The notes under the pieces: generated by a model
Databases searched by the model: none
Told to the model about the DNA's origin: nothing
What the model saw: only the letters and a program-made list of their open reading frames with translations
Position numbers and translations under genes: made by a program
DNA from: Candidatus Dadabacteria bacterium
GTDB lineage: Bacteria; Desulfobacterota_D; UBA1144; Nemesobacterales; Nemesobacteraceae
Length of the DNA stretch: 64,000 nucleotides
Direction: 5' to 3'
Assembly (NCBI GenBank): GCA_022826905.1
Contig: JAJDUA010000052.1
Coordinates: forward strand, 1-64,000
Shown: positions 30,281 through 42,773 of the stretch, in pieces
Layout of the letters: each line of letters begins with the position of its first letter
Numbering within the stretch: the stretch's first letter is position 1

Positions 30281-31534
30281 ATGACCGATTACGACACCCT
30301 AAACGTATGGAACGGACAGAGGCTTGTCGGATGTCTCAGGAGAGACTCCTCCGGCCACATAAGCTTTCGTTACGATGCCGGATGGCTCTCGGGCGGAGGG
30401 TTCGCGATCTCCCGGACTCTACCTCTCTGCCCGGACGAATTCCGGGGCGAGGACGGAGTCGCGCGCAGGTTCTTCGCCAACCTGCTTCCCGAAGGCGGTT
30501 TCCGGGAACACGTCTCCCGCGCCCTAAAGACATCGGACACGGATTTTAACCTGCTGCGAGCCATCGGCGGCGAGTGCGCGGGCGCCCTGTCCTTTCTGCC
30601 TCCGGAGCGGCGGCCTTCAGTGGAAGAGAACTACCACGCGATAAGCGACGGGGAACGGGCGGAGCTGGTTTTCCAACGCGGCCAGATGTACTTGTGGGCC
30701 AGGCAGCGGAATTGCAGGTTCTCGCTTGCGGGCGCGCAGGACAAGTTTCCGGTTCTTGTGCGGGAAGGGAAATACCTGCTGCCTCAGGGAGAATCTCCTT
30801 CAAGCCACATACTGAAATTCGAGGTTCCGGGATACCGAAACGTTCCCGCTTATGAGACCTTCACGACTATGCTAGCGGAAGCCGCCGGCCTGCCGGTGGT
30901 GAAAATCCGGATGCGGTCTGTAGACAAGAACCGTTACACGATCATGGAGCGCTACGACCGTTTCCGAAACGGGGACGGGGAGTTGACGCGGGCGCACCAG
31001 GAGGATTTCTGTCAGGTGCTCGGATACTCTCACGTACAGAAATACCAAGAAGACGGAGGGCCATCCTTCGCGCAGTGCTATGAGCTGCTTCGGGATGCAT
31101 CAAGCGACCCTGACACGGATCTTCCGAATCTGCTGCGCTGGCAAATTTTCAACGTGCTCGCCGGAAATTCCGACGGCCACGCCAAGAATTTATCCCTTCT
31201 ATATAAAGGGGACGGGGAGGTCCGGCTGGCGCCTTTTTACGATCTGGTATGCACGCGGGCAATAGAGAGAATCGATCACCGTCTGGCATTTTCGATTGGG
31301 AAGGAGAGAAACCCCGGCTCCATATTGAAACGCGACTGGGAAAATATGGCCGGACAATGCGACATCAGACCACAATACCTGCTTGGTCTTGTTGGTGAGG
31401 TTGCTGGCCGACTGCTTGAAAGCCTGAATTCAACAAGGGCTTTTTTTGAGGAGGAGTTCGGCGAATATCCAGCACTGCAACGCATAGAGCAGGTAGTAAT
31501 CAAGCAGTGTAAACGGACAGGTATACAGTATTAG
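30281..31534 (+). CDS. HipA-family serine/threonine kinase, without HipB
   Basis: A 417-residue HipA-like kinase. Seen: N-terminal couple domain (FFANLLPEGGFREHVSRAL), the autophosphorylation/P-loop region FSLAGAQDK (147-155, Ser148), HILKFE, MERYDR, HQEDFCQVLG, the catalytic loop NSDGHAKN (296-303, Asp298) and metal-binding FYDL (Asp321). All catalytic residues are present. HipA kinases inactivate GltX or similar targets and normally sit beside a HipB repressor; none is found up- or downstream. SD-like GGGAG lies upstream of the ATG. Confidence 0.87.
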   Translation: MTDYDTLNVWNGQRLVGCLRRDSSGHISFRYDAGWLSGGGFAISRTLPLCPDEFRGEDGVARRFFANLLPEGGFREHVSRALKTSDTDFNLLRAIGGECAGALSFLPPERRPSVEENYHAISDGERAELVFQRGQMYLWARQRNCRFSLAGAQDKFPVLVREGKYLLPQGESPSSHILKFEVPGYRNVPAYETFTTMLAEAAGLPVVKIRMRSVDKNRYTIMERYDRFRNGDGELTRAHQEDFCQVLGYSHVQKYQEDGGPSFAQCYELLRDASSDPDTDLPNLLRWQIFNVLAGNSDGHAKNLSLLYKGDGEVRLAPFYDLVCTRAIERIDHRLAFSIGKERNPGSILKRDWENMAGQCDIRPQYLLGLVGEVAGRLLESLNSTRAFFEEEFGEYPALQRIEQVVIKQCKRTGIQY

Positions 31535-31625
31535 CAGAAATCACAAGCAAATTAACCAGCCTGCCTGAGTCTTTTAAAGAAACCGTCCGTAATAAATTAC
31601 TTTGAAATATCAATTTTGGGTATCT

Positions 31626-31669
31626 CCAATTGGCAAAAAATTGGTTAGACTGCACATCTCGTATATTAT
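31626..31669 (+). promoter_or_regulatory. promoter and inverted repeat ahead of the DUF262 gene
   Basis: TTGGTT (31641-31646), 17-base spacer, TATTAT (31664-31669), followed by the DUF262 start 38 bases later. An inverted repeat CCAATT (31626-31631) ... AATTGG (31639-31644) overlaps the -35 box and could be an operator. Confidence 0.45.
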
Positions 31670-31707
31670 AAATATTTTTTCCGCATTTTTCTTAAGAAAC
31701 CTACGCT

Positions 31708-34023
31708 ATGTCGAAAGTTAAAGATTTATTCAAAGCTGAAGCATCTAGCCCATTGGAAATCGCTATGCTCCATAATGGCACTGTTGGCTTCGTCATCCCT
31801 GAATATCAACGACAATATGACTGGTCAAAAGACAATATTCATCGGTTGTATTTTGACATTCTGAATGGGTTTGAAAGGCTTTCTCAAGGTACCGGCGCAA
31901 GCACATTTACATTTCTTGGAACCTTAATTTTTGTAGAGCAAGACACCAAAGAACCGGATTTTTCTGGCAAATCTTTGGCCGTTGTTGACGGCCAACAACG
32001 TCTCACAACTCTAGCATTTTTTGCCTGTGCTCTTTGCGAAGCTCTAAGGCACCAATGGTCTAGCATCAATTCCTCTTCTATTGATAACACTATTTCAAAA
32101 TGGCTCAAAAAAGAAATTGAAGAGCGGCTCTACGCACTTTATACATGTGCAGTGGGTTCACAAAAGTTAACTCCGACGGAGAGTTTCCCATTTTCGAGAA
32201 TTATACGGTTGGGTGACACGCGCGGGAAATCTAAAGCTTCATCAGAATATCTATCACCAATAGGAAAATTTATTGATGGATTTACTGAATACTTTAGTAG
32301 CGAAGAAATTGAATATGTACCACCCGCAATTGGAGAAGATAAACATGCTGAGAAGCTAGCAAAAAACTATCAAATTGTTCGTCATTTAGTCAACAATCTA
32401 AATAACGAAAGTTGGTACGAAGATACAGAATGCGAACAATTTGATGTGGGACGGTTAAATCGAGCCCAATGCCGTGGCCTGCTTGAGCAGCTCCGCGATT
32501 TCGTAACAGACCAGGGTAAGATCAATAAGACCATTGAAGACATTCTTAAACTCAACGTCTTACACGATCTTGTAAGAACTTTGATGTTCGCCTCCTATTT
32601 CTGCAACTATGTTGTTTTAACCAGAGTAACAACTGAGGACGAATCCGCCGCATTTGACATTTTTGATGCACTGAATACCACAGGTGAACCACTTACCGCA
32701 CTTGAAACATTAAAACCGCGAGTCATCAATTTCGAGAGAAGTAAAACTGGGTACATCGGTTCTGAGTCAGAAACTGCTTTTGAAACACTGAACGAAAATC
32801 TTGATCAACGTTTTTCTGATACGCTACGGAAACAATCTGAAACCAAAGATCTAGTTGTCACTTTTGCCCTCTATATCGAAGGAAAAAAGCTTTCAAAAGA
32901 TCTGGCCGCACAGAGGAACTTTCTTCGAACAAGTTACGATAAAGCAGTGAGCAATAGTGAGGAATCTGCTCGACAATTTGTACGCGCACTGGCACGCACT
33001 GCTGAATTTCGACGTTTCTATTGGGGGAAAAAAGGTATTGAAGAGCTATCTCGCTTTCATGACAATAAGCATGTCGATGAAATCCAATTGCTTTCCTCAT
33101 TAATCAGTGATATGAAAACTAGCTTGATCCTGCCCATACTTTCTCGTTATTGGAAACCTGATCTAAAACAGACTGGTGATGCGCATTTTCTTCAAGCGTT
33201 AAGGGCAATCACCGCTTTTCTTGTAATAAGGCGTGCAGCAACAGGCACTACAGCAGGGATTGACAGTGATTTTAGAGCTATTATGGCCCCTAAAAAGGGC
33301 CCCGGAGCAAGTAAAAAGTTCGGCCTATGCGCTGGTATAGAACATGAAAAGGATCCTCCACATCCTAATGAATTGAAAGAAGCGTTGAAAAACCTGCTTA
33401 GGCACAAACTAAAATCACTGGATAAGAATAATTGGGTAGAAAAGGTCACTGACAACCCACTCTATGAACAATCTAGAGAACTTGTTCGCTTTATGATATT
33501 GTCTGCAGCTCATCAAGCTTTACCTTCCGAGAACTTACCTGGGACATGGCAAAGAGATGGCGTAAAATCAAGTCAAGACGAAAGAGTTTTCCTGAACTAT
33601 AAAACATGGATAGGTGCGCATTATCTCACTATAGAGCATGTAGCGCCAGAGACAGAACCGAGACGTGGTTGGCCACAGGATTTGTATAAAAATTACATTC
33701 TGCGACACACTCTTGGAAACTTAGTTCTGCTCCCCGCAAGAGAGAACACAGCTATTGGTGGCGACAGTTGGAAAAAGAAGAGAATATTCTATCTGGCTCT
33801 AACCGAGAGCACAGAGAAACAACAACATAACAGAATTGAGGAAGCAAAAGCCGCTGGTATTACTTTCTCAAAAACCATTGATGAGCTCTTGGAAAAAGGT
33901 GATCGACTACCGTTGCTGGACCCACTCCGTAATGTGGAAAAATGGAACAGAGAGGTCGTGCTACGACGCGGAAAAAATATAGCAGAACTTTGTTGGGATA
34001 TCGTTCGACCTTGGTTGGACTGA
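31708..34023 (+). CDS. DUF262/DUF1524 protein, GmrSD/SspE-like restriction factor
   Basis: A 771-residue protein with an N-terminal DUF262 domain (IPEYQRQYDW at 30-39 and VVDGQQRLTTL at 92-102, the nucleotide-binding ParB-like core) and a C-terminal DUF1524 HNH-type nuclease segment (TIEHVAPET, then LGNLVLLPARENTAIG). This is the architecture of GmrSD type IV restriction enzymes, which cut modified phage DNA, and of SspE, which acts with the Ssp phosphorothioation genes. Its position, facing a sulfur-handling operon across 108 bases, favours an SspE-like role by inference. AT-rich. Between the two domains lies a long helical region of unknown role. Confidence 0.82.
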   Translation: MSKVKDLFKAEASSPLEIAMLHNGTVGFVIPEYQRQYDWSKDNIHRLYFDILNGFERLSQGTGASTFTFLGTLIFVEQDTKEPDFSGKSLAVVDGQQRLTTLAFFACALCEALRHQWSSINSSSIDNTISKWLKKEIEERLYALYTCAVGSQKLTPTESFPFSRIIRLGDTRGKSKASSEYLSPIGKFIDGFTEYFSSEEIEYVPPAIGEDKHAEKLAKNYQIVRHLVNNLNNESWYEDTECEQFDVGRLNRAQCRGLLEQLRDFVTDQGKINKTIEDILKLNVLHDLVRTLMFASYFCNYVVLTRVTTEDESAAFDIFDALNTTGEPLTALETLKPRVINFERSKTGYIGSESETAFETLNENLDQRFSDTLRKQSETKDLVVTFALYIEGKKLSKDLAAQRNFLRTSYDKAVSNSEESARQFVRALARTAEFRRFYWGKKGIEELSRFHDNKHVDEIQLLSSLISDMKTSLILPILSRYWKPDLKQTGDAHFLQALRAITAFLVIRRAATGTTAGIDSDFRAIMAPKKGPGASKKFGLCAGIEHEKDPPHPNELKEALKNLLRHKLKSLDKNNWVEKVTDNPLYEQSRELVRFMILSAAHQALPSENLPGTWQRDGVKSSQDERVFLNYKTWIGAHYLTIEHVAPETEPRRGWPQDLYKNYILRHTLGNLVLLPARENTAIGGDSWKKKRIFYLALTESTEKQQHNRIEEAKAAGITFSKTIDELLEKGDRLPLLDPLRNVEKWNREVVLRRGKNIAELCWDIVRPWLD

Positions 34024-34131
34024 CTATTATGACAGGAAAGTCATATACCTGACTTTCCCGAAAAACCACGGAATAATCAATGGCAAGAATTGTTCTTTAT
34101 TTGTCGTATGAACAAAGATAGTCTCTATTCT

Positions 34132-35283
34132 TCAAACTGCATTAATTACAGAATTTATTGCACTTAAAGCTTTTCGGATTTCCGCTTTTGTTGTTCCACG
34201 CCCAATTCCGAAACGTACTGAACTGTTGGCTTGTTCTTTCGAGAGACCTAATGCCCGCAATACATGCGATGGTTTGGTTTCCGTTGCAGCGCAAGCAGAA
34301 CCTGTAGAAGCAGCAATTTGTGGGAGAGCTTGAAGCAGGCTGTCACTCCTGTATCCTGGAAACATGATGTTAAGGCATCCAGGAGCACGTCGCTCAGAAT
34401 CTCCGTGAAGCACTACATCCGGCTTAATTTTCTTGATTCCCTGAAAGAATATGGAAGCAAGTTCATTAATCCTAGTTGTATCTTGGATTACCTGTTCCTT
34501 AGCTATTTCCGCTGCAACTCCAAATCCGACACACAGGGGGACAGGAAGAGTCCCCGAACGAAGCCCTCCCTCTTGTCCACCTCCGAGAATTATAGGTTTT
34601 ATATGTACTTTGGGCCTTTGACGCACATAGAGACACCCGATTCCTTTGGGACCATAAGCTTTATGGGCAGAAAAAGTTGCAAGATCTAAACCAAGTTCCG
34701 ACACGTCAACAGGAATTTTGCCTAAGGTTTGAGCGCAGTCGCTGTGAAGGGCAACTCCATGCTTATGGCAGATTTGGGCAATTTCCTTTATCGGTTGAAT
34801 AACCCCCGTCTCATTGTTAACCAGCATAATCGACAATAAAAGAGTACAAGAATCAATATGCTTGCGGATAACATCTAAATCAACTATCCCATTACGGCGA
34901 ACTTTAAGCACGGAAACTCCAAATCCTGCGTCGGTCATCGCCTTTACGGGTTCTAGCACGGCTTTATGTTCGGTGGCAAGAGTAAGGATTTTATTACGCC
35001 CTCTTTTTGCCGCAGCCGCAATTCCACGGATCGCAAGATTGTTTGCTTCGGTCGCACTCCCAGTAAATACGATAGACGATGTATGACGAGCACCGATTGA
35101 CTGGGCAATCTGCACCCTAGCCGCTTCAACAGCTTCACGCGCTCGAACAGCGTAACGGTAATTATCAGTATGCGGATTATGGAAAAAGTCCTTAAAAAAT
35201 GGTTCCATTGCAGTAAGAACCCTCGAATCTATCGGTGTAGTTGCCTGATGATCCAAGTACACTATATCCAAGTGATTTTTCAT
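34132..35283 (-). CDS. cysteine desulfurase (IscS/DndA/SspA-type)
   Basis: PLP-dependent enzyme that removes sulfur from cysteine and holds it as a persulfide. Motifs: YLDHQATTP, VFTGSATEANNLAI, ATEHKAVLEP, PLP lysine in SAHKAYGPKG (about Lys208 from the ATG used) and the catalytic cysteine loop STGSACAATE (about Cys331). The protein of 383 residues is full length. A TTG nine codons upstream is also in frame and overlaps the preceding gene. It ends the six-gene operon, directly after the PP-loop gene; no isc scaffold genes are nearby, so a dedicated role in sulfur modification, as for DndA/SspA, is the likelier reading than general Fe-S assembly. Confidence 0.9.
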   Translation of the reverse strand: MKNHLDIVYLDHQATTPIDSRVLTAMEPFFKDFFHNPHTDNYRYAVRAREAVEAARVQIAQSIGARHTSSIVFTGSATEANNLAIRGIAAAAKRGRNKILTLATEHKAVLEPVKAMTDAGFGVSVLKVRRNGIVDLDVIRKHIDSCTLLLSIMLVNNETGVIQPIKEIAQICHKHGVALHSDCAQTLGKIPVDVSELGLDLATFSAHKAYGPKGIGCLYVRQRPKVHIKPIILGGGQEGGLRSGTLPVPLCVGFGVAAEIAKEQVIQDTTRINELASIFFQGIKKIKPDVVLHGDSERRAPGCLNIMFPGYRSDSLLQALPQIAASTGSACAATETKPSHVLRALGLSKEQANSSVRFGIGRGTTKAEIRKALSAINSVINAV

Positions 35284-35297
35284 GGTTTGTTTTTCTT

Positions 35298-36569
35298 TTA
35301 GTCCGTACAATCACATGGCATAGAGTCGTCTATGAAAATAGGCTGTTCTTCCTCAATATCTTCACGAAGAGATGCATATGTAGTTGGTGAATTTGCCCCG
35401 AAAAAACCAAATCGTGTTACGGAATTTCCGGTTTTTGTGCTAGCCACTCTACGTGCATACTTATCTTCAATATCTATCCACCATTCAATATCAACCGGGG
35501 TTTTTTGGTGCTTTGGCGGAAGAGAATTTTCTGATTGGTCTTTTATTATCCGTCTAAGGGTTCTTTTCCCTTTCATAAAACAGTAAACGCAGTTTGAAAA
35601 ATTTACGGAATGTGGAATTCTTAGATCCCAAGACTGTTTCTTCCAAAATTCCATTGTATCGTTTTTAGTAACTCCATGGTCAGCAAGCGGCGTGTAAATA
35701 TATTCTCCGTGAGCGAGCTTATCCGGGTTGGAATCCGAAAGGCCGCTGTTGTTTCGAGTCTTGACCCTAGCTACTCTTTGAAATTCGTCTGCTCTGAGAC
35801 CCACCAACGTTATAAAATCCACTGGATTGTCCCCTTTTAACTCAGCGGTACCACCAAAGGCCCTATTTTTAATACCAGAGTTCCTTATGCGAACGTGAGA
35901 TGCTTGTGTATAGTCCTGGAACTTTTGAGAAGATCGAGTCGTGGAAGTACTCAGGTGATAACTTACGATTCTTTCCAAGTCTTCACGTCTAAGACGGCTG
36001 ACTTTGCTCTTTCTATACCAATGGCCAAGACGCGAAGTGTGAGATTTAAAAGCAAACCAGTCTTCGAGAAAGCGGATAGTTGTCTCCAGTTTAAGATGTT
36101 GGGTACAGAGTCGCTGCAAATGGTTTGGGAGACGTTGCTTCCACGACAGCATTTCCTCAAAAACTTCTCCCTTATATCTATAGCCGTAAGGACGATTCCG
36201 CGCGAAAGGATGGTCCTTTACTAGCCTGTAACTGGGAAGGCGGGTCCAGTTACCTCTCCTAGAATCTTCATAAGTTTGAAATTCTGTCCAGAAAAATGGG
36301 ATATTATAACGTTCCTCCGTAATTCTTTTGCATATGGAGGCAAAATCATAAGTAGCCGGATACTCAGCTGATGTATTGTTAAAAATGACTACATCTCCAC
36401 GCGATGGCCTAAGACAACGGTTTTTCAGAAGGGAGAGAAGCAACATTGCGCTAGATCTTCCGCCCGAGAATTTGAATACATGGGGCCAAGTGCGATGCTC
36501 TTCCATTTCATACTGAATGGATAGATCGGGCACCTTGCGCAATCTGATTTTACTAATATTAATTCTCAT
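35298..36569 (-). CDS. PP-loop PAPS-reductase-like protein (DndC/SspD-like)
   Basis: A 423-residue adenine-nucleotide alpha-hydrolase-fold protein. PP-loop FKFSGGRSSA (32-41), then LCTQHLK with Cys155, GLRADEFQRVAR (258-267) and NCVYC with Cys327 and Cys330; these cysteines with the RxCTxxLK context are typical of PAPS-reductase-like ATP pyrophosphatases carrying an iron-sulfur cluster, such as DndC and SspD, which activate DNA for sulfur insertion. A further cysteine pair ends the protein (PCDCTD). Overlaps the preceding gene by 11 bases and lies 14 bases before the cysteine desulfurase gene, its probable sulfur donor. DndC orthology is not established. Confidence 0.78.
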   Translation of the reverse strand: MRINISKIRLRKVPDLSIQYEMEEHRTWPHVFKFSGGRSSAMLLLSLLKNRCLRPSRGDVVIFNNTSAEYPATYDFASICKRITEERYNIPFFWTEFQTYEDSRRGNWTRLPSYRLVKDHPFARNRPYGYRYKGEVFEEMLSWKQRLPNHLQRLCTQHLKLETTIRFLEDWFAFKSHTSRLGHWYRKSKVSRLRREDLERIVSYHLSTSTTRSSQKFQDYTQASHVRIRNSGIKNRAFGGTAELKGDNPVDFITLVGLRADEFQRVARVKTRNNSGLSDSNPDKLAHGEYIYTPLADHGVTKNDTMEFWKKQSWDLRIPHSVNFSNCVYCFMKGKRTLRRIIKDQSENSLPPKHQKTPVDIEWWIDIEDKYARRVASTKTGNSVTRFGFFGANSPTTYASLREDIEEEQPIFIDDSMPCDCTD

Positions 36570-37440
36570 TAACGGATTTATTTATAATCTCTTTGATAAT
36601 CTCAAAATTCTCCTCAAGTGATAATACCCCCATCATTTGGTATGCAGTTCTTTGGCCTATACGTCTCAGAAAATCCTGAATTATATTTCGGTCATTGGGA
36701 ATTGGATTCATCTCCGACAGGCAGGCAACTAAAGGAATGAATATTCTCCTATCTCCTAAAACGGTAAGTTTTTCCACTACATGACCAGTAATTTCTTCCC
36801 ATATCCTGTTTGTCCTCAACACCCTCCATACTTTTTCTTTTTCTGTTCCGATTTCCTCGTGCACTTTCTCCGTGAAATAACCCCTCCACCATGCTCTTGA
36901 AGTTCTGCAATCCTGGAAAACACTTGTATAGCCTCGTACTTCAGGCAATCCACCCATACGACGCAGGATGGTACGCACACAGTCATCCAAAGGTTTTCTA
37001 TCCTGTGAAGCAATTGCTTTTTCGATACGCGCCTGCCCAGTCTCTCTAATCTGCCCCTTGACTAGATAACTAGGCTTTATGAAGCCCACATCAATCATAT
37101 TTAGATGATAGCTCGACCAGAAAGCGTTTGATGAAGCAAGTTTTCTTGGAAGATTTCTTAAAGAATCAAAAACTGATGCTTCGGTGTCTTGTGGAGGATC
37201 AGCAAACTCATCTTCGGTTAAAGGGCTGCCCCAAAAATAAGGTGGGAGCAAATGCTTTTCTTCCATATCTTGAGTTTTACAGCGACACTTAAAATAAGCC
37301 ATAAATTTCTGATTGTCTGTGTCTATAGCAAGTTTGGCAAATTCTTTTTGTTTTCTGAAAAGCAAATCTTTATTGTCTGATTTAACAAGATCTTTTCTGA
37401 GTTCACTCAGATCGCTTGAAATCAACAAATTCTTAATCAT
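36559..37440 (-). CDS. unidentified operon protein, perhaps DUF6339-like
   Basis: A 293-residue, mostly helical and charged protein with no signal peptide. Short tryptophan-rich blocks (SNAFWSSYHLNMI, SRAWWRGYF, and WRVLRTNRIWEEITGH) and the C-terminal GDRRIFIPLVACLSEMN recall, at low confidence, the DUF6339 family often met beside GHKL ATPases in defence loci. No catalytic motif is visible. Its ATG overlaps the stop of the gene before it (ATGATTAA), and its end overlaps the PP-loop gene start, so it is firmly part of the operon. A TTG nine bases upstream is an alternative start. Confidence 0.6.
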   Translation of the reverse strand: MIKNLLISSDLSELRKDLVKSDNKDLLFRKQKEFAKLAIDTDNQKFMAYFKCRCKTQDMEEKHLLPPYFWGSPLTEDEFADPPQDTEASVFDSLRNLPRKLASSNAFWSSYHLNMIDVGFIKPSYLVKGQIRETGQARIEKAIASQDRKPLDDCVRTILRRMGGLPEVRGYTSVFQDCRTSRAWWRGYFTEKVHEEIGTEKEKVWRVLRTNRIWEEITGHVVEKLTVLGDRRIFIPLVACLSEMNPIPNDRNIIQDFLRRIGQRTAYQMMGVLSLEENFEIIKEIINKSVNEN

Positions 37441-38287
37441 TGTCGTCAATGCCGGTATTAATCACGTGGGGATGGAATTTTGCAACGGCACGGTTTGCAC
37501 TAAATTCTTCTTCTTCCCACATCTTGATTTTCTTATCATTCAGCATTTTTCGTAAGGCTCGCAAATTGTGGTGATTGCTCCACTCCTCCTCTTTTTTGAA
37601 ATCCCGACTAAGAATACCCAATCCCTCCGCAAACGCCGCTGCGTAAAGGCTATCCCTATGATTAAAAGCGTCTCCGCAATTATGTAATGAGTCAAAAAGT
37701 TTCGGATGCGCTTTGATTTCAAAATAAAAGCCTTCTTCTTCGGCAGCTTTCACTTCATAACATCCTTCGGGAAGTTCTTCTGGTTCGGCTTTCCGGATAC
37801 GAAGGATACTTTGAAGAGTGCTTTGCGACTGCCAGAAAGGGGCTATTGCCAGAAACGCACCTTTTGGAAAAGATACCTTGCTGGAACTCCATATATCATG
37901 TACTCCATCCACAAAACTTTTAAGAGTGTAGTCTTTTATCTCTTCAAGCGTTACCACAGCGGGTTGAAACAAAAGCGGAAATCTGACTCTTCCTTCATCC
38001 CAAGTTAGTTTCTGGATGTGCTCAATCTCCCGTGATTTATTCTCCACAAACACTTCGCGGTATATAGAATGAGCGGATGTTAAAGTGCATGCGAATGCTG
38101 CCCTACCCTCAGATATAAGTCTCGCTACAAGATTCCCATCTGAAACTTTATGTTCTATGGTAAAAAAGGATTTCCCCTGATTTCCGTGGCGAGTTTGTGC
38201 TGTCTCGTATCGGTACTGGGGCAAGTAGTCCAGACTGTTTTTTGCCATTACAGGATAAGGGCGGGCTCTAGGGAGTATCGGCGGCAT
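37433..38287 (-). CDS. unidentified operon protein
   Basis: A 284-residue protein I do not recognise. Basic at the amino end (PPILPRARPYPV), mixed alpha/beta thereafter, with FPKGAFLAIAPFWQSQ and a C-terminal NHHNLRALRKMLNDKKIKMWEEEEF segment. No nuclease, ATPase or methylase motif stands out. An ATG 13 codons downstream (MAKNSLDYLPQY) is a reasonable alternative start. It begins 12 bases after the GHKL ATPase gene and overlaps the next gene by eight bases. From position it should be a subunit or specificity factor of the same complex. Confidence 0.6.
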   Translation of the reverse strand: MPPILPRARPYPVMAKNSLDYLPQYRYETAQTRHGNQGKSFFTIEHKVSDGNLVARLISEGRAAFACTLTSAHSIYREVFVENKSREIEHIQKLTWDEGRVRFPLLFQPAVVTLEEIKDYTLKSFVDGVHDIWSSSKVSFPKGAFLAIAPFWQSQSTLQSILRIRKAEPEELPEGCYEVKAAEEEGFYFEIKAHPKLFDSLHNCGDAFNHRDSLYAAAFAEGLGILSRDFKKEEEWSNHHNLRALRKMLNDKKIKMWEEEEFSANRAVAKFHPHVINTGIDDND

Positions 38288-38299
38288 TAAAGTTCTTTC

Positions 38300-40234
38300 C
38301 TATTTCGATCTGCTCACCACGCTTACCTTTATAACGGCATCCTCTGAGAGTGCGTTTAACAAGGGAATAATTACTGTTTTGCTCTGATCTTTCGTTATGG
38401 ATCCTATCAGAAGTTCAAAGTCTTTCCCCTTCTCTCCTCTATAAGAATCCTCCTTCAGAGGACATCCATCCACTAAAGCTTCTCTTTTAAACTGCATGAA
38501 TCCTTCCTGAATTGGTTTCTGGCAGGAAGCATCAGCACCGTTATCAAGAGTTAGTCTAATACCTGCGTTGGTTAAGTCTTCATTGCTACGTATGGCAAGA
38601 GTTACTCGGTTGCCTTCAACTCTCGCCACAGTCAAAACATCCGCGTCCCTACCAGATCGATTAAAAGATGGGGTTCTACCCGGTTCATTTACAGGCGCAA
38701 GATTTTGATTGGTATTAGTTTTGTTCCGGTTTCCGGGCTGATAGTCACTAGCTCTTTCAGACTCAAGTAGTGAAGATGTAGATTCGTCAACTTCTTCAAC
38801 AAGAGGAATTGAGTTTTTATCTTGATCGTTTTGGTAGGATTTTTTTCGTTTAGAAGATTTAAGTCCGTCTCCGATCGGATTGATCAACATAAAATCAGAT
38901 GGTGAATATGCTTGTGCCTCTGATTTTTCAAGTCCTTCGATAACATTGCTCCTTATTTCCTCAAAAAGAATATTAAATTTCTTTCCGTCTTCGTCTTCTA
39001 GTCTCTTGACACTAATATCGAGATGTTTCTCTCCTTCTGATTTACGAATTAGCTTGAAAGCTTCTGAGGGGGGATCTATCAATACCAAGGCATTAAAGGG
39101 TTTGTAACCAGAATAATTGCTCTGTCTGTTTCTAGGAAGAGAATCTGTTATCCACATTCCGCTTCGAAATAGGTTAATACGAGTACGTTCCTGAGTGGAC
39201 TGACGAATGTATATGACGACCCTGCCGTAACTAGTTTCAACAATCCGTTCATCTGAAAGAACAAGTGTCTGATAAGCACTGTACGCTTTACTGTTGGAAA
39301 GTGGGTCACCTGTTCTTGTGTTTTTAATATTCTTGCTAATTATATCACTCAGAGAACTTTTATCTAATACTCTGACACCAGACTTCCTTTCTACACTGAC
39401 GACCAACCGCCCACTCCGTATGGAAGGAAAGAAATGCTTGGCAGCCGTGGAGAGAATGGTTTCTACACATGAATCTTCGCCAGCCTCAAGGAAGTTGTTA
39501 AAAGCGGTTATAACTACTACCGAACCGGAGCCACTATCTTTTTCTATAATATCAAGTTGTGAATCCAGAAAAGAGTGAATTTCTCCGTTGCTTGGAAATA
39601 CGTACCTGTTCCGCACGGTCGGAAGAGTATTTTTAATTAAAAAACCATCTTTTCCTCTAAGCTTGCCCTCTATCTCGTGTGATGCCAGAATGGCATGTGC
39701 AGAGGTTGTTCGTTTCAAATCGCTTGTAACTCCACCGTATAAAATAAATTGAAGATTTGATGCTGGGAACGCAGTGAAATGCCCGAGTCCGTAAGAACCG
39801 GCAGATTCCTGTTCGCTTTTGCTTGTAGTACCATCTCCCAAGAGTGAATTCATTCGTATGGTATCAAGACCTATTCCGTTGTCGATAACATTAAGGATTC
39901 TCACAGTTTGAGACTGAATGCTCTTTTCTATCCGAGAAATCTGAGCTTGGGCATTTTCGAGATGCCCTTCGTGAGTCTTCAGCGCCGCACGGAACGCTTT
40001 ACGATATTCTTCTATTCCTGGCAGGTTTTTTGTCTTAAGTTCTTCAAAAACAAAACGAACCTTAACTTGGTCTCGACCGGCAAGCTGTCCAGCGTCTAAA
40101 GAATTTTGTATCAACTCGCGCACTATTGGGCCAGGCGCTACGCTGTTTTCAGTAGCAAGCGTTTTCGAGGCAAAGCCCTCAGCGGTACTAAATCCGGTAA
40201 AGGTTAAAGAAGATTTTCTTTCTGTACTAGTCAT
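38300..40234 (-). CDS. GHKL-fold ATPase (MutL/Hsp90-type)
   Basis: A 644-residue protein whose first 160 residues form a GHKL ATP-binding domain: N box ELIQNSLDAG (40-49), the VIDNGIGL motif (116-123) and the GSYGLGHF lid (146-153). The rest, including a low-complexity linker near residues 470-530 rich in Ser, Asn and charged residues, is not assignable. Defence-associated MutL-like GHKL proteins are known, for example in the Mza system. An inverted repeat AAATTG/CAATTT at 40255-40272 precedes the start and might be an operator. It is second in the operon, 52 bases after the HNH gene. Confidence 0.8.
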   Translation of the reverse strand: MTSTERKSSLTFTGFSTAEGFASKTLATENSVAPGPIVRELIQNSLDAGQLAGRDQVKVRFVFEELKTKNLPGIEEYRKAFRAALKTHEGHLENAQAQISRIEKSIQSQTVRILNVIDNGIGLDTIRMNSLLGDGTTSKSEQESAGSYGLGHFTAFPASNLQFILYGGVTSDLKRTTSAHAILASHEIEGKLRGKDGFLIKNTLPTVRNRYVFPSNGEIHSFLDSQLDIIEKDSGSGSVVVITAFNNFLEAGEDSCVETILSTAAKHFFPSIRSGRLVVSVERKSGVRVLDKSSLSDIISKNIKNTRTGDPLSNSKAYSAYQTLVLSDERIVETSYGRVVIYIRQSTQERTRINLFRSGMWITDSLPRNRQSNYSGYKPFNALVLIDPPSEAFKLIRKSEGEKHLDISVKRLEDEDGKKFNILFEEIRSNVIEGLEKSEAQAYSPSDFMLINPIGDGLKSSKRKKSYQNDQDKNSIPLVEEVDESTSSLLESERASDYQPGNRNKTNTNQNLAPVNEPGRTPSFNRSGRDADVLTVARVEGNRVTLAIRSNEDLTNAGIRLTLDNGADASCQKPIQEGFMQFKREALVDGCPLKEDSYRGEKGKDFELLIGSITKDQSKTVIIPLLNALSEDAVIKVSVVSRSK

Positions 40235-40286
40235 TTCTTGGAACTCTGCAGTTAAATTGAAAAGGCAATTTATCCAATGATAATTG

Positions 40287-41195
40287 TTAAGTCAAAACCA
40301 GTTCAGGTTCTCTAAACACTTCTTTCCAATGCCATTCAATGTATTCCAGACTAGGAGAATATTCTGTCTTTCTCGGTAATTTTATTTTCCGTTTCTGGTA
40401 CTTTTCAACAAAATCACTTCCGCTGTTAGGACTATGTATCGATTTCGATAGGATAATACGGTAATCCTTCGACAGAGTAAAAACCCCCAAGTCGAGAAGT
40501 TTATGATGGGTAGCACAAAGAGCGATACCATTGTTCTGTGTATCTGGTCCACCAAGCTGATGCCATCTAATATGCGCTGCCTCGAGTCCTACTGGGATTG
40601 TATTTATATGGAGATCAAAACCACATATTGCACAACTGTAATCATAGGCTTTAAGAACATTCTCTCGAAACTTTTTGTCCCGCTTAGCCCTCTTAAACGA
40701 GCGCCTATCAGCAGGATATGTTTCGTAATCAAACCCTACACGCTCTAATATAATCTGGTGTAATGGTTCATCGAAATGTTGATCTAATAGCTTCCGCGCT
40801 GCCTGCCAGGCAACTTCAGGGTTGTCTCTTATCTCTTGTGCAACTTCTTTGGAAAACGAACCAGTGGCATTGTATTTTCTAAGATCTCTAACGTGTGCAT
40901 CATACGATTTAGTTTCTTTTATTCTCCCAGAAGTTTCTACTTCCCAGATGTTAATTTTCTCTTTACGTAATCGCCAGAACGGAAATTCCACATGATGTTT
41001 ACGACCGGACAAAGGTTTATAAAACTCATTTAATAACTCTCGAATATCTTTTTCTATAAGAGAAAATTCAAATTTTGCGTTTGGATCCCGCACCTGTCTA
41101 GCTAATGCGTAGATAAGAAGCAGTGGTTTGTGAGGAGCTCTTTTTCCTCCCCGTTTCCAGAGATTCAGGCTGTCTATCGCGTCAAGTAGTTTCAT
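40287..41195 (-). CDS. HNH endonuclease with sulfur-binding-domain-like N-terminus
   Basis: A 302-residue nuclease. The amino half has the pattern RAPHKPLLLIYALAR (19-33) and HHVEFPFWRL (67-76), then WEVE, which matches the sulfur-binding domain of phosphorothioate-dependent restriction enzymes (ScoMcrA/SprMcrA type). The C-terminal half is an HNH domain: Cys188-x2-Cys191, EAAHIRW (His208), NNGIALCATHHK (Asn221/222, Cys227, His230/231) and the LGVFTLSKDYRI tail typical of that family. It should cut DNA bearing phosphorothioates. It leads the operon, 48 bases after ppx on the same strand; I see no strong promoter in that gap. Confidence 0.82.
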   Translation of the reverse strand: MKLLDAIDSLNLWKRGGKRAPHKPLLLIYALARQVRDPNAKFEFSLIEKDIRELLNEFYKPLSGRKHHVEFPFWRLRKEKINIWEVETSGRIKETKSYDAHVRDLRKYNATGSFSKEVAQEIRDNPEVAWQAARKLLDQHFDEPLHQIILERVGFDYETYPADRRSFKRAKRDKKFRENVLKAYDYSCAICGFDLHINTIPVGLEAAHIRWHQLGGPDTQNNGIALCATHHKLLDLGVFTLSKDYRIILSKSIHSPNSGSDFVEKYQKRKIKLPRKTEYSPSLEYIEWHWKEVFREPELVLT

Positions 41196-41243
41196 CTGGA
41201 CTGAGGCAGAAATATTTAAAAGGTAATTGAATTCTACACGGAT

Positions 41244-42773
41244 TTAAGTTCCCCACCCAACGGTTTCATTATCTTGCTCCCGCGCGATCGTCTCGTAATC
41301 GCATCCGACAGCCTTTGCAAGGGCTCCCAGACGGCGACCGACGGTCTCGGGATGCGGGATCTGGTCAGGCATATGTAAGGTAAGCTTCTCTCCGGTCCTC
41401 TCAAGCCTCGTACTCTCAAGAATCCGCGTCACTCCCCCGGAAACTGTGTAGGCCAGGCGAAGCGCAAGCCCCGTAACTCTGGCTTCCTCAATATCATCTC
41501 CGGAAAGAAAATCCGAAACTTCCCAGCGACGGATCAGGTCTCCTATCGTCGCGTGCCTCGACGCCACGGAAAGAGCCACCCTCACCCTCTCGGGATGGGT
41601 AATTCCCACAAACGGCATCCGTAGTATCCTCAAAAACACCTGCTCTGCCCGGTATTCCGGATGCTCGGAAATCCCTATGTCGGAAAGATAGCAAGCGGCA
41701 AGTCTCAGCCTCGGATTCCCGGAGTATTCGTCAGGAATCGCCAGTTCTATCCACCTGCAGAAAGCCTCGCCGTCCCCAATCGATCTTCCCATCTTAAGCG
41801 CGATTTCCTGACACATGATAATGAGAGGATCCAAGGAACGCTGTTCCGGTAGAAGATCATCATATATGCATCCCTCCCGAAGGCCGTACGTACAAAACAC
41901 AAGATCCCTTACCCCTGTTCTTTCCAGAAGACTTTTCATAAGCGCCGCAGCGTAGGGAGCGGATTCCATCCTGTTTCTTCCTATGATCCAGAGACTCCGA
42001 AGCGAACCCGGGGATATATCAACTACCTCCCGGGTCATCTCAAGCGACCTTGAACTGGAAAGACTGTAGCCGTGAACTATTCGAAGCGGGTAGTCCTCGG
42101 TTTCCATGTGTTTTTTCGCAAGAGCGCGCCACGAACCCCCGACGGCGTAGAAGGTCTTCTTTTTTGCGTTTTTAAGCCAAGGAAGCTCTTCAAGATGGGG
42201 GGCGATCAGTTTCTTGGCGGCCTTTGCCGGACTGAGACCGCTTTCAAGAAGCGGGATAGTACCCAACGGCAACGTGGCGTGGTTTTCTATTTTTCCTTCG
42301 TGAATCTCGACCAGTTCAAGGCTTCCGCCCCCTATGTCCCCCATTACGCCGTCAGCGTCAGGGATAGCGCAGAGGGTTCCGAGAGCGGAGAGCCTCGCCT
42401 CCTCCATGCCCGAGAGCACCCGGAGCGATATCCCGCATTCACGCTCGATCGTTTTTCTGAAATCGGGACCGTTTGCGGCGTTTCTAACCGCGGCGGTGGC
42501 AACGGCCTTTATGTCGGAGACCCTCATCGAACGCGCGATATCCACAAAGCGGCTTACGGTCCGGAGAGCCATGTCCACGCTTCGCGGTGACATCCTGCCT
42601 TCTGTATCCATCCCGCGCCCGAGACCGCAGGCAACCTTCTCGTCAAATATCGGAAGCGGAGCGCGCTTCGGCCCCCCGTAGATCACAAGACGTATGGAGT
42701 TTGACCCGACGTCGATTACCGCCACGCTCGCGCTTCGGCCAAACGGAGCGGCGGACAGAGATGCTGCTGTCAT
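41244..42773 (-). CDS. ppx: Ppx/GppA-family exopolyphosphatase
   Basis: Hydrolyses terminal phosphate from polyphosphate (or pppGpp). The actin-like ATPase fold is evident: VIDVGSNSIRLVIYGG with the first phosphate loop, VMGDIGGGSLELVEI with the second, and ATAAVRNAANG between. At 509 residues it includes the C-terminal HD-like domain seen in longer members. Three bases separate its start from the ppk stop, giving a ppk-ppx operon that controls polyphosphate levels. The defence operon begins right after it on the same strand and may receive read-through. Confidence 0.9.
   Translation of the reverse strand: MTAASLSAAPFGRSASVAVIDVGSNSIRLVIYGGPKRAPLPIFDEKVACGLGRGMDTEGRMSPRSVDMALRTVSRFVDIARSMRVSDIKAVATAAVRNAANGPDFRKTIERECGISLRVLSGMEEARLSALGTLCAIPDADGVMGDIGGGSLELVEIHEGKIENHATLPLGTIPLLESGLSPAKAAKKLIAPHLEELPWLKNAKKKTFYAVGGSWRALAKKHMETEDYPLRIVHGYSLSSSRSLEMTREVVDISPGSLRSLWIIGRNRMESAPYAAALMKSLLERTGVRDLVFCTYGLREGCIYDDLLPEQRSLDPLIIMCQEIALKMGRSIGDGEAFCRWIELAIPDEYSGNPRLRLAACYLSDIGISEHPEYRAEQVFLRILRMPFVGITHPERVRVALSVASRHATIGDLIRRWEVSDFLSGDDIEEARVTGLALRLAYTVSGGVTRILESTRLERTGEKLTLHMPDQIPHPETVGRRLGALAKAVGCDYETIAREQDNETVGWGT

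Follow-up and report, generated by a model that had tools for sequence, protein, structure and literature searches.

What does an operon that places a cysteine desulfurase and a PAPS-reductase-like PP-loop enzyme beside a GHKL ATPase do for the cell that carries it? This question is raised by a stretch of 64,000 nucleotides of Candidatus Dadabacteria DNA (assembly GCA_022826905.1, contig JAJDUA010000052.1), here called the window, in which an island of seven genes, SspE and a six-gene operon, lies between HipA and Ppx. We read the island as a modification-restriction system based on the phosphorothioate (PT) mark, with an ATPase core that is common to methylation-based systems and would act on the restriction side. 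To this reading, drawn from gene content, homology and conservation across phyla, we give a probability of about 0.52. The seven genes are listed below; U1 and U2 are the two proteins that an initial annotation of the window had left unassigned.

31708..34023, plus strand: SspE, a DUF262 NTPase/PT sensor (GmrSD_N) with a DUF1524 His-Me nuclease, oriented convergently with the operon (PADLOC, Pfam, structures)
34132..35310, minus strand: cysteine desulfurase of the DndA/SspA/IscS type, putative sulfur donor, 392 amino acids (aa) (class-V aminotransferase; PADLOC)
35298..36569, minus strand: PAPS-reductase/PP-loop enzyme apart from DndC, SspD and BrxP, 423 aa (weak PAPS_reduct, SspD and BrxP matches; motifs)
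36559..37449, minus strand: U2, all-helical, relative of PDC-M33C/DUF6339, 296 aa (profile searches; AlphaFold2)
37433..38287, minus strand: U1, beta-rich domain with helical tail, relative of PDC-M33B, 284 aa (PADLOC PDC-M33B, 6e-12)
38300..40234, minus strand: GHKL ATPase of the MutL/MORC type, relative of PDC-M33A, 644 aa (PADLOC PDC-M33A, 3e-33; weak HATPase_c_3)
40287..41195, minus strand: PT-DNA-binding restriction nuclease with an N-terminal sulfur-binding domain (SBD) and a C-terminal HNH domain, 302 aa (NF045808; ScoMcrA alignment)

Sulfur enzymes and phosphorothioate readers

All six open reading frames of the operon were confirmed on the minus strand, in the order HNH, GHKL, U1, U2, PAPS-like enzyme and cysteine desulfurase. 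Counted from the HNH gene they are separated by gaps of 52 nt and 12 nt and then by overlaps of 17, 11 and 13 nt. The initial annotation had described a tight six-gene minus-strand operon with gaps of at most 52 nt that joins sulfur enzymes to a GHKL ATPase; both points are borne out, and the sulfur enzymes and the ATPase also stand together in other genomes.

Two proteins of the island are readers of PT. The SspE model PDLC02786 of PADLOC scored 1113 bits for the 31708-34023 protein, which carries the Pfam domains GmrSD_N and GmrSD_C and matches the solved SspE-type structures 6jiv and 20yv over its full length. The initial annotation, which saw no DndB, DndD, DndE, SspB or SspC-like gene here, had overlooked this gene; no DndD match was found in the genome, and no operon gene matched SspB or SspC. 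The second reader is the HNH protein, which scored 312 bits on NCBIfam NF045808 (“phosphorothioated DNA-binding restriction endonuclease”; curated cut-off 180). Its N-terminus aligns to the SBD of ScoMcrA (5zmm, 5zmo), with H22, K23, F71 and P72 corresponding to H116, R117, Y164 and P165 of the ScoMcrA sulfur pocket. Most homologues have Lys at position 117, and position 164 is variable (PMC6224610). The protein was first described as a plain HNH nuclease; the HNH_2 domain is indeed present, but the SBD had been missed. It thus shares SBD and HNH domains with the ScoMcrA/SprMcrA-type nucleases, although ScoMcrA has 561 aa and an SRA domain, for which the 302-aa protein is too short. SBD-HNH proteins are already known in dnd loci (PMC10853773).

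The PADLOC scores of the desulfurase for DndA (462 bits) and SspA (461 bits) are indistinguishable. Its identity with the DndA of the canonical locus in G001, a sister Candidatus Dadabacteria genome of the same genus, is 38%. Two further IscS-like desulfurase genes are present in the window genome, both on another contig.

The PAPS-like family is marked by an SGG-x-[ST]-S loop (SGGRSS in the window), an RxCT-x-x-x-K motif and the conserved cysteines C155, C327, C330, C419 and C421, which suggest an iron-sulfur cluster. The window protein reached only about 30 bits with SspD, over short stretches, and less with BrxP and DndC; by comparison, the true DndC of G001 scored 638 bits on the DndC model. 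In the PADLOC search the window had no hit to DndC models. A profile comparison with that DndC was weak (E 0.018, probability 2.6%), with the SGGxxS and RxCTxxxK motifs still aligned. Because the SspD, BrxP and DndC scores are low and the DndC profile match is weak, we place the family on a separate branch, neither SspD nor DndC. PAPS-reductase-like proteins of Roseobacter, Erythrobacter, Rhizobium and other phages (records H18-H27) are 21-32% identical to the window enzyme, and alignment-based scans of viral contigs found no relatives of the PAPS-like family or of U2. One plasmid match from Bosea was rejected; it sits between the genes for thymidylate synthase and dihydrofolate reductase.

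The GHKL-U1-U2 core and its partners

The remaining three operon genes match PDC-M33, a candidate system of PADLOC: GHKL (M33A), M33B and M33C are adjacent in the window in the same order. That the two proteins first called unassigned are part of this candidate had been overlooked. The GHKL motifs are intact (N-box E40/N44/D47, D118-NGIG and glycine box G146-G151 in alignment A4). U2 scored 22.9 bits on DUF6339, just below the cut-off of 23.2, and the U2 of the sister species matched PDC-M33C at 3.6e-9. The fold prediction that the initial annotation had proposed yielded AlphaFold2 models of both proteins: all helices for U2 (pLDDT 83), and for U1 (pLDDT 71) a beta-rich domain that ends in a helical tail. 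Neither found a confident fold match with Foldseek; U2 had none in PDB or BFVD, and U1 had just weak beta-sandwich matches. No mention of PDC-M33 or DUF6339 was found among open-licence papers, and no GHKL relative in a phage collection. No methyltransferase occurs among the seven island genes, and the PAPS-desulfurase pair stands in that place.

We searched a small sample of about 480 distinct genomes (G000-G479) with a PAPS-like profile. An earlier contig scan with a two-sequence PAPS alignment had matched the sister genome alone, because its two peptide patterns were too narrow. Strong matches occurred in seven genomes (the window genome, G001, G151, G331, G469, G210 and G241), and in all of these but G241 the gene adjoins GHKL-U1-U2. 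In the window, G001, G151 and G210 the cluster includes a desulfurase gene; in G331 and G469 it does not. The operon also encodes a DUF262 protein in G001, G151 (split), G331 (a partial reading frame) and G469; the window has SspE in its place. The PT locus of G210 encodes no DUF262 protein and is minimal, with no added nuclease gene adjoining. In G151 the DUF262 nuclease gene is broken by an apparent IS3-type transposase pair (L023 11720-14661). G241 has an apparent three-gene set of PAPS-like enzyme, desulfurase and DUF262 protein (L024 8517-13158), and there is no GHKL match in its genome.

The six genomes with both PAPS-like gene and core span at least four phyla, because the phyla of G151 and G210 (5 and 77 genomes in the set) contain no other carrier and G331 has only its domain in common with the window genome. 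Gene orders differ among them. The arrangement is more than chance, because it recurs across phyla. The conserved synteny on which the initial annotation's proposal depended is therefore found for PAPS-GHKL-U1-U2, in five genomes besides the window, but all six genes, the HNH gene included, were seen together only in the window.

Elsewhere the same core accompanies methyltransferases. It occurs with a C5 methyltransferase in G003, G106, G419 and, as second loci, G210 and G151 (loci L006, L007, L044, L045 and L046); in G419 the third core gene lies beyond the available stretch. Vsr is encoded in all five of these loci but that of G210, where the GHKL gene is divided over two overlapping frames, through a frameshift or as two separate genes (L044 9201-11062, G210:C21). 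A sixth C5-linked locus is on pAAG24-152 of Arthrobacter agilis, where Dcm and Vsr are encoded upstream, a few genes away from the core. On this plasmid a Shedu nuclease gene follows the core, and a type II restriction endonuclease is also upstream (L050 6914-11794). On the Ligilactobacillus salivarius plasmid NZ_CP062072.1 (L051 6875-10473) the core directly follows a restriction S subunit and an N6-adenine methyltransferase, and it precedes MmeI-like, methyltransferase and helicase genes.

The core is thus swapped between PT and methylation enzymes, and its two versions are deeply separated. Between them, hhalign gave probabilities of 99.8% for GHKL, 99% for U1 and 57% for U2 (E 1e-4), with identities of 20%, 15% and 13%, respectively. 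In a tree of 14 GHKL proteins the six of the PT type form one clade (support 100/100). Within the PT type, U2 has the highest identity of the core proteins. Because U2 is the least similar subunit between the groups, though the most similar within the PT type, we infer that of the three it has the closest link to the mark.

Possible roles of the core

The sulfur very probably goes onto DNA as phosphorothioation, because the island holds two PT-reading nucleases and the core occurs with DNA methyltransferases elsewhere. Pairs of PP-loop enzyme and desulfurase are also employed in tRNA thiolation, and it could be speculated that this pair thiolates tRNA or a nucleotide instead. The chance of this is slim: SspE and the SBD-HNH protein flank the pair in the same island, the core partners with DNA methyltransferases in other genomes, two other desulfurases exist elsewhere in the genome, and the distribution is patchy and island-borne. 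DNA, the target that the initial annotation had favored, is supported as the likely one. Another possibility is a diverged form of an ordinary Ssp or Dnd system, built from known subunits. The SspE gene and the DndA/SspA-type desulfurase would fit such a system; however, with a PAPS-like enzyme that scores about 30 bits for SspD and still lower for DndC (a real DndC reaches 638 bits), no SspB, SspC, DndD or DndE in the operon, and a GHKL ATPase (PDC-M33A) rather than an SspC-type AAA+ or DndD-type ABC ATPase, we consider it very improbable, and here the initial annotation was correct. Slimmer still is the chance of a decayed or accidental defence island whose unrelated systems are mere neighbours with no joint function. 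Locus composition does vary, as seen in the transposon-split DUF262 gene of G151 and the lack of a core in G241, but the genes overlap, PAPS-GHKL-U1-U2 occurs in differing orders in six genomes of at least four phyla, and the PT-type GHKL proteins form one clade.

It is harder to decide on which side the core acts. The initial annotation had the GHKL protein replace DndD or SspC in making the mark, which is only one of two options; given the C5-methyltransferase partners, the core may well belong to the restriction side. In its fuller form the first option makes the core part of the modification machine, where it would take the place of DndD/DndE or SspB/SspC as ATPase and DNA-scanning subunits and leave restriction to SspE, the DUF262 proteins and SBD-HNH. 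We regard this as unlikely, though as a contender to be taken seriously. In its favor, Dnd and Ssp writers have an ATPase and DNA-binding partners (PMC10853773), no DndD match was found in the window genome while G001 carries a separate canonical DndCDE-A locus, and dedicated PT readers already provide restriction in the window. The methylation-linked loci speak against it: C5-type DNA methyltransferases need no helper to methylate, and C5 and N6 enzymes bring their own site recognition. So do G241, which keeps an intact PAPS-desulfurase-DUF262 set in a genome with no GHKL match, and the PT locus of G210, which has no nuclease gene beside it. A role of the core in restriction is favored at slightly better than even odds, because methyltransferases methylate without it, the two loci of G210 lack an added nuclease, and G241 has the writers without the core. 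Several observations weigh against a restricting core. Dnd and Ssp writers need ATPase and DNA-binding partners (DndD/E, SspB/C; PMC10853773), which this operon would be missing if the core did not provide them. A restriction arm already exists in SspE or another DUF262 nuclease together with SBD-HNH, so that a second may be redundant. GHKL, U1 and U2 showed no recognisable nuclease motif. Finally, the PAPS and GHKL trees, which have long branches, disagree in detail and do not show strict co-evolution.

With a restricting core, the island would work as follows. The cysteine desulfurase would take sulfur from cysteine, and the PAPS-like enzyme would activate the DNA phosphate with ATP and insert the sulfur, so that self DNA is marked. 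GHKL, U1 and U2 could form a clamp of the MutL/MORC kind, driven by ATP, that tells DNA molecules apart by their mark and disables wrongly marked or unmarked DNA, with U2 as the likeliest mark-specific subunit. SspE would be an additional PT reader that attacks unmarked invader DNA when the cell contains PT, and SBD-HNH would cut DNA with a foreign PT pattern. More tentatively, at somewhat less than even odds, GHKL-U1-U2 may be a modification-agnostic immune core for three marks, 5-methylcytosine, N6-methyladenine and phosphorothioate, with U2 as its exchangeable mark reader. The sulfur version would then add to Dnd, Ssp and type 4 BREX another lineage of PT defence, one that has a separate family of PAPS-like writers.

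Insertion site, known systems and meaning

The island and its immediate neighbours occupy the following positions.

30281-31534, plus strand: HipA-family gene, island neighbour
31600..41230 (edges approximate): low-GC island, presumed horizontally acquired (GC profile; sister species with a divergent inverted version at the site)
41244-42773: Ppx, the other island neighbour

GC is low throughout about 31-41 kb (0.40-0.45) compared with the flanking windows (0.50-0.61), so that SspE and the operon seem to have been acquired together as one island, with HipA on one side and the ppx-ppk genes on the other. No target-site duplication or flanking repeat was recognised. The open reading frames of 29.6-30.3 kb include no obvious HipB-like partner just upstream of HipA, and HipA is present at the same site in G001. 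There (contig JAPOQQ010000076.1), reordered and in opposite orientation, lie genes for a PAPS-like enzyme, a desulfurase, a 560-aa DUF262 protein, GHKL, U1 and U2. The flanking proteins of the two genomes are 75-90% identical but the PAPS-like enzymes, desulfurases and GHKL proteins only 46%, 44% and 32%, a pattern consistent with a hotspot at which the genes were acquired separately or replaced. G001 carries its canonical DndC-DndD-DndE-DndA locus apart from the GHKL-type sulfur system (L054, G001:C38, 2437-7697), so a single cell may contain two PT systems at once.

The PT systems reviewed so far have DndD/CxC ABC ATPases or SspC/BrxC-type AAA+ ATPases (PMC10853773, PMC12839542). Compared to SspABCD-SspE, the window has an SspA-type desulfurase, a PAPS-like enzyme and the SspE effector, but its PAPS-like enzyme is remote from SspD and its operon genes gave no match to SspB or SspC; a genome-wide search with one SspC model was empty, as were its controls, and SspB was sought among the operon genes. 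With DndABCDE and IscS-DndBCDE-DndI the window shares a desulfurase, a PP-loop enzyme and nucleases that read PT next to the writer, SBD-HNH types among them (PMC10853773), but it has a GHKL ATPase and no DndB, DndD or DndE. DndD had no match in the window genome, which is 93% complete, while the same search gave 582 bits in G001. Type 4 BREX also combines a PAPS-reductase-like PT enzyme, BrxP, with other defence proteins; the window enzyme is only remotely similar to BrxP, and PglZ, BrxC and BrxL are absent from the seven island genes, the part of the genome searched for them. In MORC/paraMORC operons GHKL ATPases adjoin DNA methylases, Vsr and HNH genes, as described by Iyer et al. 2008 (PMC2292703); that description does not mention phosphorothioation, and no SF2 helicase is present here. 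PDC-M33 itself has the same GHKL-U1-U2 order and homologous proteins, but the modifier of the window is a PT-type sulfur pair rather than a methyltransferase, and its core proteins stand apart in a deep clade of their own (13-20% identity between the two groups).

No description of PT combined with GHKL or MORC proteins was found in the open-licence literature, the scope of this search as distinct from subscription papers and preprints. The pairing of a sulfur mark with GHKL-U1-U2 seems to be a type of phage defence that has not been described before. Defence by a MutL/MORC-type GHKL core next to a sulfur mark would be new as an architecture, and it has a bearing on GHKL/MORC ATPases in the mark-dependent control of DNA. 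The uncharacterised candidate PDC-M33 and DUF6339 gain a testable function, and comparison of the core versions that accompany methyltransferases with those that accompany sulfur enzymes could reveal how one restriction engine is retargeted between DNA marks.

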